Positions 11,710 through 20,577 of a stretch of 62,136 nt of DNA are shown piece by piece. A model generated the notes under the pieces. That model ran no database searches and was not told the DNA's origin. It saw only the letters and a list, made by a program, of their open reading frames with translations. Origin of the DNA: Alphaproteobacteria bacterium (GTDB lineage Bacteria; Pseudomonadota; Alphaproteobacteria; UBA828); assembly GCA_011523425.1 (NCBI GenBank), contig WTGU01000015.1, forward strand, positions 8,685 to 70,820. Direction: 5' to 3'. Numbering within the stretch: position 1 is the first letter of the stretch; each line of letters begins with the position of its first letter. The translations under genes and the position numbers were made by a program.

Positions 11710-14700
11710 GTGGAAACCCGCGAGCTCTTCTGGGAGATCACCTCCCTAGGCCACACCCTCTTCTTCGTGGTGGCGGGTGCCGCAATGGCGGTGGCAGCGG
11801 CAGGCGTCGGCTGGCATGTCTGGCGCTACGCCCGCGCGCGCCGGAGCCCGGTTCCGGTCCATCCCTGGCGCGGCTTCTGGCGCATGATCTTCGACGTCGG
11901 CTCGCAGCGGACGGTGCACCGACGTGACCGTGCCGCCGGCCACGCGCACACGCCGATCATGTACGGCTTCCTCCTGCTGCTGGCCGCGACCAGCATCATC
12001 ACGGTCGAGTACGACATCTCGGAGCCGTTCTTCGGCTTCACCTTCTGGCACGGCACCTTCTACCTCGTCTTCAGCCTGATCGCCGACCTCGCCGGCCTCG
12101 GGCTGATCGCCGGCTGCGTCTACATGATGTGGCGGCGCTGGAAGCTCCGTCCCGCCAAGCTCGCCTACCGCCGGGACTATCGCGGCGAGACGGAAGAACG
12201 GCCCCGCGCCCGCGCCTGGCTCAGGGACGACGCACTCTTCCTCTGGGCGCTGCTGCTGATCGCGCTGACGGGCTTCCTCCAGGAAGGGGTGCGGCTCGCC
12301 ATGGACCAGCCCGCCTGGGGGGCGTGGTCGCCGGTGGGCTGGGTGCTCGCCCAGATATTCCTGGGGCTCGGCATGGACGAGGCCGCCGCGGCCGCCGTGC
12401 GCCGCGCCAACTGGTGGATTCACGGCATCGCTGCTTTGGCCTTCATCGCCGCGATCCCCTGGACCAAGGCGAAGCACCTGATCGCCGTGCTCGGCTCGCT
12501 CTCGACCCGCGACGCGAGCGCGCTCCGCCGCCTCCCGATGCCCCGCCCGGAGTCCGCAGGCGCCGCCGCCGCGGTGGATGGGAACGACGCCGAGCCCGAG
12601 GTCGGCTTCGGCAGCATCGCGCAGTTCTCGTGGAAGGACCTGCTCAACCTCGACGCCTGCACCAAGTGCGGCCGCTGCCACGAGGCCTGCCCCGCCACCG
12701 CCAGCGGCGCGCCGCTCAGCCCGCGCGACCTGATCCTCGATCTGCGCACCCATGCGGCACGCAGCGCCTTCCGGCCGGGAGAGGACGCGGGACTTTCGCT
12801 CATCGGCGACGTGATCGAGGCGGAGACGCTCTGGTCCTGCCGCTCCTGCGGTGCCTGCATGGAGATCTGCCCGGTCGGCATCGAGCACCCGCCGATGATC
12901 GTGCAGATGCGGCGCCGGCTGGTCGAGGACGGCACCATGGAGCAGCAGTTGCGCGATACCCTCGACATGATCGCCAACCGCGGCAACAGCTTCGGCGAGA
13001 GCCCGCGCACCCGTGCCGGCTGGACCGCGGCGCTCGAGTTCCCGGTGAAGGACATCCGCGAGGAGACTGCCGATCACCTCTGGTTCGTCGGCGACTATGC
13101 CTCCTACGATCCGCGCAACCAGGAGGTCTCGCGCACCGTGGCGCGCCTCTTCCGCGTCGCCGGCCTCGACTTCGGCCTGCTCCACGAGGCCGAGCGGACA
13201 GCCGGCAACGACGTGCGCCGGGTCGGCGAAGAGGGCCTCTTCGAATCCCTCGCGGAGCACAATCTGGGTGCGATGGCGGAGGCAAAGCAGTTCGACGCCA
13301 TCGTGACCACCGACCCGCACAGCTACAACACCATCCGCAACGAGTATCCGGACTTCGGCGATGTCGCGCCCATCCGCCACTACACGAGCGTTCTCGCCGA
13401 GCTGCTGGAGAGCGGGCGGCTCACCGTGACCAAGCCGCTCGGCAGGCGGGTGACGCTGCACGATCCCTGCCATCTGGGCCGGCTCAACGGCCACTACGAC
13501 GAGCCGCGCCGGGTGCTGGAGCTGATCGGCTGCGAGCTCGTCGACATGCCGCGTTGCCGCGACAATTCGTTCTGCTGCGGAGCCGGCGGGGGACGCATCT
13601 GGATGCCCGATCCGGTGGGCAAGGAGAAGCCCGCGGAGAACCGGATGCACGAGGCGGCGTCTCTCGGTAATCTCGACGCCTTCGTTGTCTGTTGCCCCAA
13701 GGACATGACCATGTTCGAGGACGCCCGCAAGACCAGCGGCCACGAGAGCGACTTCGTCGTTCAGGACCTGGCGGAGCTGGTGGCCGAGGCGATCGATCTG
13801 AAGAGCATCGATCTCAAGGAAGTGCCGGCGCTGGTCGATCGCATCGCCGATGCCGCCGCAGCCCGCATCGCCGACGCCGTGGCGGAGCGGCTGGCCGATC
13901 GCCTCGCCGACGCCGTGGCCGACAGGGTAGCGCAGGACCTTTCCGAGCGCGCGCCTGCGCTCGCCGCCGCCGCTCCACAGCCCGCGCCGCAGCCTGCCGA
14001 GGGAGAGGGACCCGCGCCGGAAGCCGGGTCGGAAGTGCCGGCGGCGGACGCTGGCCCCTGGCGCCCGGCGCCGGTCAGCGCGGCAACGCTGCCTCCTTAC
14101 GAGGTGCCGGCGAAGGACGGCCCCCGCGTGCTCGTCGCCGTCAAGCGGGTGGGAGAGCTCAACGCGGACTTCGTCATCGACGAGGAAGCGCGCACCATCG
14201 CCGACGAACACTTCGAGCACGAGCTCAACGAGTGGGACGAAGCGGCCCTCGAGGAGGCGCTGCTGCTGACCGAGAAGCTCGGCGCGGGCGAGGTGGTGGC
14301 GGTCACCATCGGCCCCGAGGATGCCGAGGACACCTTGCGCCGGGCTCTCGCCAAGGGCGCCCACCGGGGCGTCCGGGTCTGGGACGAGACGCTGCGCGAC
14401 GCCGACCCGGTGACCGTCGCCCGCGTGCTGGCGGGCGTCGCCGAGCAGGAGGCGCCGGACATCATCATGACCGGCGCGCAGTCGGCCGACCTCGGCCACG
14501 GCGCCACCGGCTCGGCGCTGGCCCGCGTCCTCGGCGTGCCCCATGCGGCCGTGGTCCTCGGTATCGACTGGGACGGCGGCGAGACGATGACCGTGACCCG
14601 CGAGCTCGAGGGCGGCATGCGCCAGCAGCTTGCGCTCCCGGCGCCGGCGCTGCTCACGATTCAGACCGGCGGCAACACGCCGCGCTACGCCACCATGCGC

Positions 14701-14895
14701 ATGATCAAGCAGGCGAAGAAGAAGCCCGTCGCCGTGGTGGACGGCGCTGGCGTCGGCCTCGACCAGGCGGGCGCGGTGGTGCGCCGGCTCTACGAGCCGC
14801 CCAAGAGCGGCCGCGCGGCGATGATCGAGGGCGACGCGGCGGCGGTCGCCGCAGCCATCGCCGGGATCATTCGCGAGAAGCGGGGAGAAGCGTGA
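11710..14895 (+). CDS. Fusion of a membrane Fe-S/CCG-domain oxidoreductase (DgcB-like) with ETF beta subunit
   Basis: One uninterrupted 1061-residue frame joins two proteins normally encoded separately. Residues 1-260 hold five or six hydrophobic helices like the NarI-type membrane domain, with candidate heme histidines H15, H36, H78, H80, H114 and H238. Residues 317-327 (CTKCGRCHEAC) and 377-387 (CRSCGACMEIC) bind two 4Fe-4S clusters. The second CCG domain has C587 and the pair C622-C623 (FCCGAGGG); the first keeps the fold but reads AERTAGNDVRRVGEEGLF without cysteines. Residues about 707-800 are a linker: an amphipathic helix of IADA/RLAD repeats followed by a Pro/Ala/Glu stretch. Residues about 805-1061 are a full-length EtfB. 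Known DgcB-type proteins pass electrons from methylamine or betaine dehydrogenases to quinone. Start is GTG. etfA follows at once. A covalently tethered ETF:quinone reductase is my inference. Confidence 0.9.
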   Translation: METRELFWEITSLGHTLFFVVAGAAMAVAAAGVGWHVWRYARARRSPVPVHPWRGFWRMIFDVGSQRTVHRRDRAAGHAHTPIMYGFLLLLAATSIITVEYDISEPFFGFTFWHGTFYLVFSLIADLAGLGLIAGCVYMMWRRWKLRPAKLAYRRDYRGETEERPRARAWLRDDALFLWALLLIALTGFLQEGVRLAMDQPAWGAWSPVGWVLAQIFLGLGMDEAAAAAVRRANWWIHGIAALAFIAAIPWTKAKHLIAVLGSLSTRDASALRRLPMPRPESAGAAAAVDGNDAEPEVGFGSIAQFSWKDLLNLDACTKCGRCHEACPATASGAPLSPRDLILDLRTHAARSAFRPGEDAGLSLIGDVIEAETLWSCRSCGACMEICPVGIEHPPMIVQMRRRLVEDGTMEQQLRDTLDMIANRGNSFGESPRTRAGWTAALEFPVKDIREETADHLWFVGDYASYDPRNQEVSRTVARLFRVAGLDFGLLHEAERTAGNDVRRVGEEGLFESLAEHNLGAMAEAKQFDAIVTTDPHSYNTIRNEYPDFGDVAPIRHYTSVLAELLESGRLTVTKPLGRRVTLHDPCHLGRLNGHYDEPRRVLELIGCELVDMPRCRDNSFCCGAGGGRIWMPDPVGKEKPAENRMHEAASLGNLDAFVVCCPKDMTMFEDARKTSGHESDFVVQDLAELVAEAIDLKSIDLKEVPALVDRIADAAAARIADAVAERLADRLADAVADRVAQDLSERAPALAAAAPQPAPQPAEGEGPAPEAGSEVPAADAGPWRPAPVSAATLPPYEVPAKDGPRVLVAVKRVGELNADFVIDEEARTIADEHFEHELNEWDEAALEEALLLTEKLGAGEVVAVTIGPEDAEDTLRRALAKGAHRGVRVWDETLRDADPVTVARVLAGVAEQEAPDIIMTGAQSADLGHGATGSALARVLGVPHAAVVLGIDWDGGETMTVTRELEGGMRQQLALPAPALLTIQTGGNTPRYATMRMIKQAKKKPVAVVDGAGVGLDQAGAVVRRLYEPPKSGRAAMIEGDAAAVAAAIAGIIREKRGEA

Positions 14896-16054: not shown

Positions 16055-17158
16055 CTACTGCACGGTGGTGCGCGACAGGACGCGGATGCGGCTCAGGAGC
16101 TGGTCACGGTCCACGTAGCAGCCCTGCAGGTGGCGACGCCCGGTCGAGGGATCGAACGCCGTCCGCCCGTGCAGCACGCGCCGGTTGTCGAACACCAGGA
16201 GCGCGCCCGCGCGCAGGGGGTAGCGGCATTCCAGCGCCGGGTCGCGGATCACCGACGCGAAGGCGCGCAGCGCACGGCAGAGCGGGCCTATCCGATGCGC
16301 AGGCGCGCTGACCGCGCCCATCACGGCGAAGTTGAAGCGCACCTCCTCGACCGCGCCGGCCTCGTCCAGGCCGATGGTGAGCGCCCGGAAGCGAATGTCC
16401 GAGACGCGGTCCCGGAAGCGGAAGTCGATCGGGTGCCGGCTGAGAAGCCGGAAGGCGGCCGGATCGCGCCGGCGTAGCGTCTCGGCCGCCGCGAAGCCAT
16501 CCACGACGAGCGAATCGCCGCCCTCGGCGTCGTTCTCCAGGCAATGCAGAAGCTGGTAGTCGGGCGGCCGCTCCCAGTTGGGCAGATCGGTGTGGCAGAG
16601 CAGCCCGAGCGCCGTGTAGGCGTTGCTGTTGGGATCGGGCATCGAGACCACGTCGAAGTGCTCGCCGAAGTTGGTCGCCCGCACCGGGCCGATGAGCTGC
16701 GCCAGCGCAAGCACGGAGAGCGGCTCGCGCGGGGTGCCGCGCAGGACGGCAATGCCGCGGTCCCGCAACGTGAGCAGCCACTCCAGGAGGGCGGCGTCGC
16801 TGCCGCTGACCGCGTCGTAGTCCGCGCCCGGCATGGCGTCCGACAGCTCCGCGCCCCAGGTGGCGGGGGCGGGACGGCAGGTGGGACCGTCCGCTCCCGC
16901 CTCCTGATGCCGTCTGAGCCAGCCGGCGGCATAGACGCTGACATGACCCTCGGGCCGCCACTCGACACGGAGCCCGCCGTCGTCGGTGAGCGCGAACGAC
17001 GCCGCATCGAGATCCGTCGGCACCGCGAGAGGATCGAGGATCCGCTCCAGCGTCTGCGGGTGCCGGCACAGCGGACAGCCGCAATTGTCCCTCAGCCAGA
17101 CATGGTGGAAGGTCCCTGCGACGCCGTCGTCCCAGGTAACGCGGATGGAGCGCGTCAG
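16055..17158 (-). CDS. Gamma-butyrobetaine-hydroxylase-like 2OG/Fe(II) dioxygenase, probable CTG start
   Basis: The protein has the two-domain layout of gamma-butyrobetaine hydroxylase. An N-terminal domain carries the zinc motif WLRDNCGCPLCRHPQT, and a TauD/TfdA catalytic domain follows with HTD (CHTDLPNWERPPDYQLLHC) and the distal histidine of FDNRRVLHGRTAF. The 2OG arginine is probably in RRHLQG. Family members hydroxylate gamma-butyrobetaine, trimethyllysine or related betaines. The only in-frame ATG (17296) would add 46 Arg-rich residues inside the upstream Rieske gene. The conserved domain instead begins at a CTG at 17156-17158 that overlaps the Rieske stop as CTGA, giving 367 residues. 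The start is therefore uncertain, but the family is not. Confidence 0.8.
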   Translation of the reverse strand: MTRSIRVTWDDGVAGTFHHVWLRDNCGCPLCRHPQTLERILDPLAVPTDLDAASFALTDDGGLRVEWRPEGHVSVYAAGWLRRHQEAGADGPTCRPAPATWGAELSDAMPGADYDAVSGSDAALLEWLLTLRDRGIAVLRGTPREPLSVLALAQLIGPVRATNFGEHFDVVSMPDPNSNAYTALGLLCHTDLPNWERPPDYQLLHCLENDAEGGDSLVVDGFAAAETLRRRDPAAFRLLSRHPIDFRFRDRVSDIRFRALTIGLDEAGAVEEVRFNFAVMGAVSAPAHRIGPLCRALRAFASVIRDPALECRYPLRAGALLVFDNRRVLHGRTAFDPSTGRRHLQGCYVDRDQLLSRIRVLSRTTVQ

Positions 17159-18240
17159 TCGCCTGGCGCTGCGGAGCCGACGGCCTCCCGCACCATCTCG
17201 TGGAAGTAGAACAGGCCGTTCTCGTGACGCGGACTCAGCGGTCCCCGATCGTAAATGCCGGCCTCTAGGTTCTCCTGGATCAGCGGAACGATCCATTGAT
17301 CCTCCTCCCCGATGAGTCTGCCGTAAGCCACCGTCGCCTCGAAGTCCTCCGCACTCACCGAGTCCGGCTGCCAGAAATTATAGACGAGACGCGTCTCCGC
17401 GTGGCCGACCGGCTCCATCCGCATGAAGGAAAGTCCGTCCGGATATGAGTTGAAGGTGAAATTGGGGAATCGCCACCCGTAGCTGCCGGGATGATTCGAG
17501 TTCCCCTTCGCCGGCGCCTCGTGGAGGCTCCCGCCATGGAAATTGATGACCCGGTAGCGCTTCCAGTCGAGGTCGCGGTGCAATCCCGGGTGCAGCGGCG
17601 GAATGTGGTAGCCCTCCTGATAATTGTCGACATAGGTCTTCCAGTTGCAGCGGACGAGGAACTGCACCTCCCGCCCGAAGCTGGCCCGCTCCGGCGCGGT
17701 CCGCTCGACCGAGTCCTCTACGGGGCCGAGCCACTCGACGAGCGGCGGCGCATCCTCGTCCATGCACACGAAGACGAGGCCGCGCCAAACATCGACGGAG
17801 ACGGGGTAGAGGGACAGCTCGTCCTTCGGAAAATCCGGTGCCTCGCCGAACAGCGGCACGTGGTCCAGCGCACCGTCCGAGCGGTAGCGCCAGCCGTGAT
17901 AGGGGCACTCGATGGTGTTGCAGCGGCCGCTCGGCTCCGTCAGCAGCTTGGACGCCCGGTGCCGGCAGACATTGTGAAAGCCGCGCAGCGTACCGTTCTC
18001 GGAGCGGCGCACGAAGATCGGGAAGCCCGCAGGCGCGGCCGTCAGGTACTGGCCGGGCTCGACCACCTCGCCCTCGCGGCCAATCCAGAGCCACTGGCGG
18101 GCGAAGATGTGCTGCCGTTCCGCCTGGTAGATCGCGGGATCGGCGTACCATCGGGCCGGCAGGGCCCACACCGTAGCCTCGTGCATCCGCTCGGAGATCG
18201 CAGCGTCGACGCCTTCGGCCGGCCGCACGTGGGTATCCAT
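17155..18240 (-). CDS. Rieske non-heme iron oxygenase, alpha subunit
   Basis: This is a 361-residue ring-hydroxylating-type oxygenase that resembles the carnitine monooxygenase CntA, stachydrine demethylase and choline/betaine monooxygenases. The Rieske 2Fe-2S ligands are C92, H94, C112 and H115 (CRHR and CPYHGW). The mononuclear iron site is DNYQEGYHIPPLHPGL, with H212 and H217 and the bridging D205. These enzymes need a separate reductase, and none is adjacent. The next gene is a butyrobetaine-hydroxylase-like enzyme, so a quaternary amine such as a betaine or carnitine is a reasonable substrate class, but this is inference. It starts at ATG 18238-18240. Confidence 0.85.
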   Translation of the reverse strand: MDTHVRPAEGVDAAISERMHEATVWALPARWYADPAIYQAERQHIFARQWLWIGREGEVVEPGQYLTAAPAGFPIFVRRSENGTLRGFHNVCRHRASKLLTEPSGRCNTIECPYHGWRYRSDGALDHVPLFGEAPDFPKDELSLYPVSVDVWRGLVFVCMDEDAPPLVEWLGPVEDSVERTAPERASFGREVQFLVRCNWKTYVDNYQEGYHIPPLHPGLHRDLDWKRYRVINFHGGSLHEAPAKGNSNHPGSYGWRFPNFTFNSYPDGLSFMRMEPVGHAETRLVYNFWQPDSVSAEDFEATVAYGRLIGEEDQWIVPLIQENLEAGIYDRGPLSPRHENGLFYFHEMVREAVGSAAPGD

Positions 18241-18275: not shown

Positions 18276-19082
18276 TTACACCTCTATGCGATCGAGTGCA
18301 CGCCCCTCCGAATCGAAGCAGGCGGCGGCAAGCGAGCCGCCGTAGCCCGCGCCGCCATCGACCGTCGCGACATAGTCGTCGAGGCTCACGCCGCCCTGCG
18401 ACGGATCGTGGCCGCGGATGATCTTCTTGAAGCCGGCAAAGGGCGGGGTGAGCGCCTCAAGCTGCTCGCTCCCCCACCAGAAGGCGTCTCTCTGCGCGTC
18501 GATGGGACGCGTCGGATCGACTCCCGCGTTCACGAAGAGCAGCGCGCCGTCATCGGTGAACGCCGCCTGTCGCACGCTGCCGAGCAACTCCTGATGGCCA
18601 GGGTGCAGACTCATCCTGGCGCGGATTTCGTTGGTCCAGCGGGCGATCTCCTGCGCGCCGTTGCTGACGCGCCCCTCGGCATCGCCGGCATCCCAGCCAT
18701 AGGCCGCGAGCGTCTCCCGCACGCCGCGCTCCAGCATCCAGCGCAGCACGCTGGCAGGCTCGACGGAGAGGTGAAGCTGGAACAGCTTCTGCCACATCTC
18801 CTCCTGGCTGCCGCGCAGGTAGGCCACGTCGCAGACGTTCATGTGCGGCACCGCGAGGAGCGCGCTGCGAAAGGCGACCAGTTCGTCGAGGGTGGCGGCG
18901 ACCGCCGTGCCGAGGCCGAGATAGTTGCCGAGATAGACGATGCGGTCGCCGGACCGGAAGCGCTCCTCGATGGCGGCGTGCAGCTCCGCCAACCTCTCCG
19001 CCTCACCGTGAATGGCGCCGACGGCCCAGATACGTCCGCCGCTGCGGAGCGTCACGAACCGTTCGTTGGTGGCGCAGCCCAC
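18276..19082 (-). CDS. Calcineurin-like (PPP-type) phosphoesterase homologue, probably inactive
   Basis: The 268-residue protein follows the layout of bacterial PPP phosphatases, but the metal-binding residues are replaced. The expected GDIHG reads GAIHG. GDYVDRG reads GNYLGLG. GNHE reads GSQE. The HAG segment reads VNAGVDP. Only the late histidine in IIRGHDPSQGGV is kept. It should therefore bind metals poorly or not at all. The start is GTG, 22 bases after the carD stop, and the Rieske oxygenase follows after 35 bases. It may be a binding or regulatory protein derived from a phosphatase. Function is unknown. Confidence 0.7.
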   Translation of the reverse strand: MGCATNERFVTLRSGGRIWAVGAIHGEAERLAELHAAIEERFRSGDRIVYLGNYLGLGTAVAATLDELVAFRSALLAVPHMNVCDVAYLRGSQEEMWQKLFQLHLSVEPASVLRWMLERGVRETLAAYGWDAGDAEGRVSNGAQEIARWTNEIRARMSLHPGHQELLGSVRQAAFTDDGALLFVNAGVDPTRPIDAQRDAFWWGSEQLEALTPPFAGFKKIIRGHDPSQGGVSLDDYVATVDGGAGYGGSLAAACFDSEGRALDRIEV

Positions 19083-19104: not shown

Positions 19105-20034
19105 CTACGCCGCGCGTAGGACGTCCTCGAGCTTGTTCGCGGCCTGCTCGGTATCGGTGTTCTCGACCGCCGCGAACTCCCGCGCCAGCCGATCGAGCGC
19201 CGCCTCGTACATCTGGCGTTCGCTGTAGCTCTGATCGGGCTGGCCGACGTTGCGGTGCAGGTCCCGGACGACCTCGGCGATGGAAACTGGATCGCCCGAG
19301 TTGAGCTTCGCCTCGTACTCCTGGGCGCGCCTGCTCCACATGACGCGGCGCGTGCGCGCGCGGCCCCGCAGCGCGGAGATCGCCGCGTCCATGGTCTCCC
19401 GCGAGCTCAGCCGGCGCATGCCGGCGGAATCGACCTTCCCGGTCGGCACCAGGAGGGTCATCTTGTCCTTCTCGAAGGCCACGACGAACATCTGCAGGGT
19501 CTGGTCACCGACCGCACGCTCGTCGATCCCGGTGATGCGGCCGACGCCGTGGGCCGGATAGACCACGTGATCGCCGACCGCGAAACCGTTGACCTTCGTC
19601 GGCGCCTTCTTCCTGCGCCGGGTCTCGCCGCCGGCGCCGCCCTTGCCCCCAGCAGCGGCCTTGCCGGCACGCCGGGGCTTCGTCGCACCCCCGGCCCTGG
19701 CGGCCTTGGCGCCCTTGCTGGCGCTGCTGGTCTTGGTGGCTTTGGCGGTGCCGGATGATCTGGAGGCCTTGGAGGCCGCGGCGCCCTTCGTGCGCCCGGC
19801 CCCCGCCTCCGGCTTCACGGCATCGTCCTCCGGAGCCTCCGGCTGCTTCGTCGCCCGCCGCGGCTCGGAGCGCCGCGCGGTGCCTGCAGCCGTCTTCTTT
19901 GCCGTCGTCCGCGCGCGCGCCGACGCCTGCGACCGAGAGCCGGCCCCCGCTGCGGCGGCGGAGCCTTTTCGAGCCTTGGTCGTGGTCTGCTTCTTGACGG
20001 GGGACTTGGACTTGGACGGCGCCTTGCTGCTCAC
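19105..20034 (-). CDS. carD: CarD/CdnL-family RNA polymerase-binding regulator with histone-H1-like N-terminal tail
   Basis: CarD proteins bind the RNA polymerase beta subunit and stabilise open promoter complexes, notably at rRNA promoters. The domain starts near residue 148 (VNGFAVGDHVVYPAHGVGRI) and runs to the end at 309, with the tryptophan-bearing helix RTRRVMWSRRAQEYEAKLNSGD that wedges into the upstream bubble edge. Before it lie about 145 residues made almost wholly of Lys, Arg, Ala, Ser, Thr and Gly, like histone H1 or an AT-hook-poor HMG tail. Most CarD proteins are about 160-190 residues. The GTG start has AGG seven bases upstream. There is no sign of a frameshift, so the tail appears genuine. 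Confidence 0.9.
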   Translation of the reverse strand: MSSKAPSKSKSPVKKQTTTKARKGSAAAAGAGSRSQASARARTTAKKTAAGTARRSEPRRATKQPEAPEDDAVKPEAGAGRTKGAAASKASRSSGTAKATKTSSASKGAKAARAGGATKPRRAGKAAAGGKGGAGGETRRRKKAPTKVNGFAVGDHVVYPAHGVGRITGIDERAVGDQTLQMFVVAFEKDKMTLLVPTGKVDSAGMRRLSSRETMDAAISALRGRARTRRVMWSRRAQEYEAKLNSGDPVSIAEVVRDLHRNVGQPDQSYSERQMYEAALDRLAREFAAVENTDTEQAANKLEDVLRAA

Positions 20035-20232: not shown

Positions 20233-20577
20233 TCAGGCCCCTTCTCCCGGCTTGTCGGAGAAATATTTTTCGAACTTGCCGTCCTCGTCCTTGAAATCGT
20301 CGGCGTCATCGGGCGGATCGCCCTTGCGCGTGATATTGGGCCAGATCTCGGCGAACTTGCGGTTGATCTCCAGCCACTTCCCCTCGTCGTCGTCGCCGGC
20401 GGTATCGGGAATGATGGCCTCGACCGGACACTCGGGCTCGCACACGCCGCAGTCGATGCACTCGTCCGGGTGGATCACGAGCATGTTCTCGCCTTCGTAG
20501 AAGCAGTCCACCGGGCACACCTCGACGCAGTCCTGGTACTTGCACCGGATGCAGGACTCGATCACCAGATACGTCAT
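20233..20577 (-). CDS. fdxA: Seven-iron ferredoxin (3Fe-4S / 4Fe-4S)
   Basis: This is a 114-residue FdxA-type ferredoxin, a low-potential electron carrier in the cytosol. Ligands for the 3Fe-4S cluster are C9, C17 and C50, and for the 4Fe-4S cluster C21, C40, C43 and C46, spaced as in Azotobacter ferredoxin I. The C-terminal acidic extension ([17 protein letters not shown]) is typical of the family. It sits between a TerB-like gene and carD, a neighbourhood shared with many alphaproteobacteria. It could donate electrons to the Rieske oxygenase downstream, but nothing in the sequence proves it. Confidence 0.96.

Follow-up and report, generated by a model that had tools for sequence, protein, structure and literature searches.

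A predicted PPP-fold pseudophosphatase family encoded beside carD in Alphaproteobacteria

The closest described counterparts of the protein analysed here are the bacterial PPPs of the PrpA/PrpB and lambda types and ApaH, which share with its family the fold, the order of the five active-site loops and a helical insert. Common to the intact bacterial PPPs and the family are W115, G120, Y128, H163, Q197, W203, D242 and G244. In contrast to these enzymes, the window protein, i.e. the product of one gene in the 62,136-nucleotide stretch of alphaproteobacterial DNA that was analysed as a whole (the window), has retained neither the catalytic His nor either phosphate-binding Arg, and four of the six metal ligands are missing from it (five of six in much of its family). 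Inactive phosphoesterase folds serving as scaffolds are a kind already known from eukaryotes, where, in Vps29 and the small B-subunits of the DNA polymerases, the dead fold has been put to use as a scaffold for binding within larger assemblies; these proteins belong to other branches of the superfamily, and none of them is known to be linked to CarD or to the RNA polymerase (RNAP) of bacteria. Pseudoenzymes in general are well studied in eukaryotes, and few are known in bacteria.

On the side of transcription, the CdnL of Caulobacter, the best studied among those of Alphaproteobacteria, binds RNAP and supports rRNA transcription (PMC5324124). CarG of Myxococcus binds the N-terminal domain of CarD (PMC4374960), an example of how a member of the CarD family can have a partner protein of its own, as is proposed below for the pseudophosphatase.

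The gene, its neighbours and the former active-site motifs of its product are compiled in Table 1.

Table 1. Features of the locus in window coordinates, with residue numbers of the window protein.
Feature	Position	Strand	Evidence and remarks
Probable CarD-linked pseudo-PPP phosphatase	18276..19082	minus	ORF; GTG start; 268 aa; AF2 model; PPP fold; 138 orthologue loci with common lost ligands
carD (CdnL type)	19105..20034	minus	PF02559 2e-15, PF21095 1e-23; RNAP-interaction domain preceded by a K/A-rich N-terminal extension
fdxA, next upstream of carD	20233..20577	minus	NF045490, 169 bits, over cut-off; present in 108 of 138 loci
Rieske oxygenase gene, 3' of the pseudophosphatase	17155..18240	minus	PF00848/PF00355; takes the place of rpoH in many relatives
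First metal motif VGAIHG, residues 21-26	19005..19022	minus	D→A23, H25 kept; lambda D20/H22 equivalents; family A/S 136/138
Second motif GNYLGLG, residues 52-58	18909..18929	minus	D→N53, D→G56, R→L57; lambda D49/D52/R53 equivalents; family N 132/138, G 138/138
Third motif GSQEE, residues 91-95	18798..18812	minus	N→S92, catalytic H→Q93; lambda N75/H76 equivalents; family Q 129/138
NAG replacing HAG, residues 185-187	18522..18530	minus	H→N185; lambda H139 equivalent; family N 58, H about 57, S 16
S205 replacing phosphate-binding Arg	18468..18470	minus	lambda R162 equivalent
RGH replacing HGH, residues 223-225	18408..18416	minus	H225 = lambda H186; F/Y in most of the family

Despite the PPP fold indicated by structure, no Pfam model matched the window protein at E 1, the gathering score of PF00149 (Metallophos) was not reached, and the only NCBIfam match was ApaH at a sub-threshold E of 0.013. 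Among 104 aligned family members, Metallophos models were touched by few (E about 0.004), with PF00149 matching a single member (best E 0.0036), and ApaH was the nearest curated model by member number (30 weak matches, best 6.5e-7); none of the Pfam or NCBIfam models was found to claim the family in these 104 members. A literature search, in which subscription journals were thinly covered, retrieved neither an account of the family or of its carD link nor any bacterial PPP pseudophosphatase, and a class-wide bacterial dead phosphatase tied to carD and rpoH appears to be undescribed so far.

The initial annotation, made from the letters alone, had read a phosphatase fold with PPP layout and had suggested a structure prediction. 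AF2, run on the family's own 104-sequence alignment, returned a PPP fold with a mean pLDDT of 95.7, in agreement with that reading. The best structural match by VIA-align was RLPH2 (5VJV), with Z 21.6 and 221 residues aligned at 2.9 Å and 17% identity, and further matches were the PnkP phosphatase domain (Z 20.3), a putative Ap4A hydrolase (20.0), lambda phosphatase (18.8) and ApaH (17.6). As modelled, the protein has the calcineurin-like beta-sandwich with metal loops at the strand ends by which the PPP superfamily is recognised. RLPH2, which we take to be catalytically active, retains GDIHG and GDYCDRG, in contrast to the window protein.

For the former active site, residues were mapped by full realignment with lambda phosphatase and 22 intact bacterial PPPs, the functional roles being those of the lambda residues. 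Replacement of the three front metal motifs (GAIHG, GNYLGLG, GSQE), as read initially, was evident from this alignment. Of the six ligands that hold the metals, which in lambda phosphatase are D20, H22, D49, N75, H139 and H186, four are replaced and the equivalents of H22 and H186 remain; lost as well are the catalytic His, corresponding to lambda H76, and the Asp that partners it (D52), and both phosphate-binding Arg residues, R53 and R162, are exchanged for L57 and S205. Judged from sequence, neither the six-ligand set, nor the catalytic His with its Asp partner, nor the phosphate-binding Arg of an active PPP is present, and no alternative complete ligand set is visible.

Genome scans yielded 68 loci from named genomes; of 289 genomes sampled from the class, about 100 gave a hit. 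After further regions had been fetched, 138 orthologue loci were aligned, a few genomes being counted twice via two collections. The orthologues, 28–84% identical to the window protein, were found in Alphaproteobacteria only, in roughly a third of the genomes of the class that were sampled. One locus labelled Chloroflexota (L006, JAPPNP010000037.1), with a pseudophosphatase 79% identical to that of the window and the same fdxA-carD block, is most likely a mis-binned alphaproteobacterial contig.

Throughout the family, GD.HG has become [AS]-x-H-G, GDxxDRG has become GN-x-x-G and GNHE has become G[SA]QEE, so that the same substitutions are fixed in the 138 loci (Table 1). A family signature is proposed as [AS]-x-H-[GA], L-G-N-x-x-G, R-G-[SA]-Q-E-E-M-W and R-G-[FY], to which the window protein conforms (VGAIHG, LGNYLG, RGSQEEMW, RGH) with the last aromatic as the sole mismatch. 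H25 is kept in about 89% of the family, position 57 is R in about one third, and position 205 is mostly S, G or N. Of the metal ligands, the family retains the H22 equivalent, plus that of H139 in about half. The remark that the AG motif lacks its histidine was right for the window and its relatives, but about half of the family keeps the HAG histidine. Similarly, the late histidine noted at the outset is present as H225, but it is not an ancestral family feature: about 5 of the 138 orthologues have His at this position, most others F or Y, and all six nearest relatives (78–84% identity) have F. By this alignment, H225 is a local exception of the window.

In a phylum-wide sample of 349 genomes, every strong match fell within the window's own class. 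Weaker matches with motifs read were PPPs with intact GDxHG/GDxxDRG/GNHE/HAG/HGH, and among the matches so read in the 289 class and 349 phylum genomes no intermediate between the family and intact PPPs was found. Orthologues with intact ligands, by which the window copy could have been explained as simply degenerate, were likewise not found in these genomes. An intact PPP paralogue (L002), which is left out of the orthologue counts given here, is encoded elsewhere in the window's genome. Plasmid records gave 13 distant matches only (26–31% identity), the annotated ones being metallophosphoesterases. In a tree computed without 22 motif columns, 51 family members were split from 22 intact PPPs with an SH-aLRT of 100, which is consistent with one origin of the family.

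The ratio dN/dS (Nei-Gojobori) was 0.09–0.22 in the window's own clade and 0.01–0.14 in most other pairs. The former active-site loops are more conserved (3.36 bits per position) than the rest of the protein (2.42 bits; p 3e-7), and a good part of the residues conserved in the family only, among them R72, R90, E95, M96, W97, K99 and R223, lies in or beside these loops. This argues that the face of the old pocket has a new job and is not dead weight. Given sequence, structure prediction, tree and dN/dS, we conclude with high confidence that the window gene belongs to an alphaproteobacterial family of PPP-fold pseudophosphatases kept by purifying selection for a non-catalytic role. The initial proposal of a selected pseudoenzyme rather than decay is thus upheld by the fixed substitutions, the purifying selection and the missing intact-ligand orthologue.

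The start of the pseudophosphatase ORF lies 22 nt past the carD stop, which had been taken initially as a hint of a regulatory link. This placement is class-wide and not a local accident, since in 123 of the 138 loci (at a distance of 1.5 kb in one of these) carD was the immediate upstream neighbour, in the same orientation. The gap was below 50 nt in 26 of the 122 loci measured, and in one locus (L095) stop and start overlap by 4 nt; this overlap was the closest approach to a natural carD-pseudophosphatase fusion (Rosetta stone), none of which was found. The heat-shock sigma gene rpoH (sigma-32) follows directly downstream in 59 of the 131 loci for which the flank was long enough, and its strand is nearly always that of the pseudophosphatase gene. 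In much of the class, a second rpoH type is a neighbour of carD, with or without the pseudophosphatase between the two (L127, L119 and 57 other loci; G033, G039, G121, G123 and others).

The main rival, which we regard as rather unlikely, holds that the pseudophosphatase is selected for a function unrelated to transcription and that its position beside carD is an old, vertically inherited order. It draws on 40 genomes without the gene, all of which encode CarD: as read from the listed coordinates, carD and rpoH are adjacent in 12 of them, so the neighbourhood is ancient and part of the linkage is old inherited gene order. Several carriers, moreover, hold the pseudophosphatase away from carD (L039, L054, L103, L110, L114 and others), next to dapF in L054. 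Against this reading, most loci keep adjacency and orientation across deeply diverged lineages, the gaps are short, one pair of genes overlaps, and rpoH still adjoins the pseudophosphatase in two loci from which the carD neighbour is gone (L119, L127).

Of 13 carriers without carD as direct neighbour that were checked, 11 encode CarD elsewhere, and no match was obtained in G166 (80% complete) and G187, both drafts. The use of carriers without CarD as a natural experiment was dropped, as only these two draft genomes were available. Pairwise family distances track those of CarD (r 0.71) more closely than those of FdxA (0.47), with a partial r of 0.62; with FdxA being short and all genes sharing the species tree, this mirror-tree signal for CarD is weak evidence. 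A promoter and terminator scan gave nothing informative in the intergenic stretches of the window.

A specific functional connection with the linked rpoH was also considered, and the window itself weakens it. Downstream of the pseudophosphatase, the window has the Rieske oxygenase gene and a gamma-butyrobetaine dioxygenase-like gene, and the best RpoH of its genome is 45% identical to the linked type, resembling the unlinked RpoH class found elsewhere. CarD is favoured over RpoH as the partner because the linked rpoH type has apparently been lost from this genome, in which the pseudophosphatase gene is nevertheless intact beside carD.

Two further observations were made in the window. The window CarD has a roughly 140-residue, Lys/Ala/Ser-rich, histone-H1-like extension ahead of the RNAP-interaction domain; long tails of this sort are shared by the nearest relatives (L003-L008, L071, L076) and a few distant ones (L061, L124, L126, L133), most alphaproteobacterial CarD proteins here having none. 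In addition, a 1061-aa ORF on the plus strand (11710-14895) combines a membrane/Fe-S oxidoreductase part with an entire electron-transfer-flavoprotein beta subunit (EtfB, residues 806-1057) and is followed by an apparent ETF alpha subunit; taken with the two genes at 16-18 kb, for a GbcA-like Rieske oxygenase and a carnitine-type dioxygenase, it resembles a betaine/carnitine catabolic cluster.

On balance, a selected pseudophosphatase acting as a docking partner in the CarD/RNAP module is, with moderate confidence, the best overall explanation of these data, and the protein probably serves transcription by binding and not by catalysis. The two-metal centre, the catalytic acid and the phosphate clamp were lost, most simply once in a common ancestor. 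The remodelled face, comprising N53-x-x-G56, R90-G-x-Q93-E94-E95-M-W and R223-G, would then offer a docking surface for a macromolecular partner. This partner may be sought in the transcription-initiation module encoded around the gene, most likely CarD or CarD-bound RNAP; that CarD/RNAP is contacted directly is suggested only tentatively. Docking could tune the stabilisation of open promoter complexes by CarD. In its furthest and more speculative form, the proposal is that of an unrecognised alphaproteobacterial initiation factor, a dead phosphatase that might dock via its converted active site on CarD or CarD-bound RNAP, possibly also on the sigma-32 holoenzyme, and set the levels of CarD-dependent promoters such as those of rRNA. 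CarG, which presumably does not have a PPP fold, would differ from the pseudophosphatase in this respect.

The conserved pocket loops would also suit a non-catalytic ligand sensor, in which a nucleotide, e.g. Np4A or a different alarmone, is bound in the old pocket and its presence is relayed to the transcription machinery. The weak ApaH matches described above fit this idea, as does the C-terminal LDxGCGxGG motif, which we take to resemble ApaH. It is nevertheless an unlikely reading, as the equivalents of lambda R53 and R162 are missing and so are the phosphate-holding metals.

Strong conservation of H25, N53, E94, E95 and D199 could, in principle, point to an enzyme that uses these residues and R223 for another kind of metal site or for chemistry without metals. 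E94, however, is also kept in intact PPPs, the sequence offers no other full ligand set, and we know of no PPP that works without the lost residues, all of which makes such an enzyme highly improbable. A decaying gene copy, or pseudogene in the making, for which the loss of several catalytic motifs might speak, was rejected with near certainty, given a frame that is open in every listed match, substitutions that are the same throughout and fixed, and a dN/dS of at most 0.22.

The docking proposal concerns a strongly conserved pseudophosphatase whose gene, located between the transcription genes carD and rpoH, is carried by roughly one in three of the alphaproteobacterial genomes in the sample. 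Caulobacter is suspected by us to be without the gene, and if so, this partner would be missing from the best-studied alphaproteobacterial CdnL model. If the link to CarD is true, the pseudophosphatase would be an extra component of initiation control in a large bacterial class.
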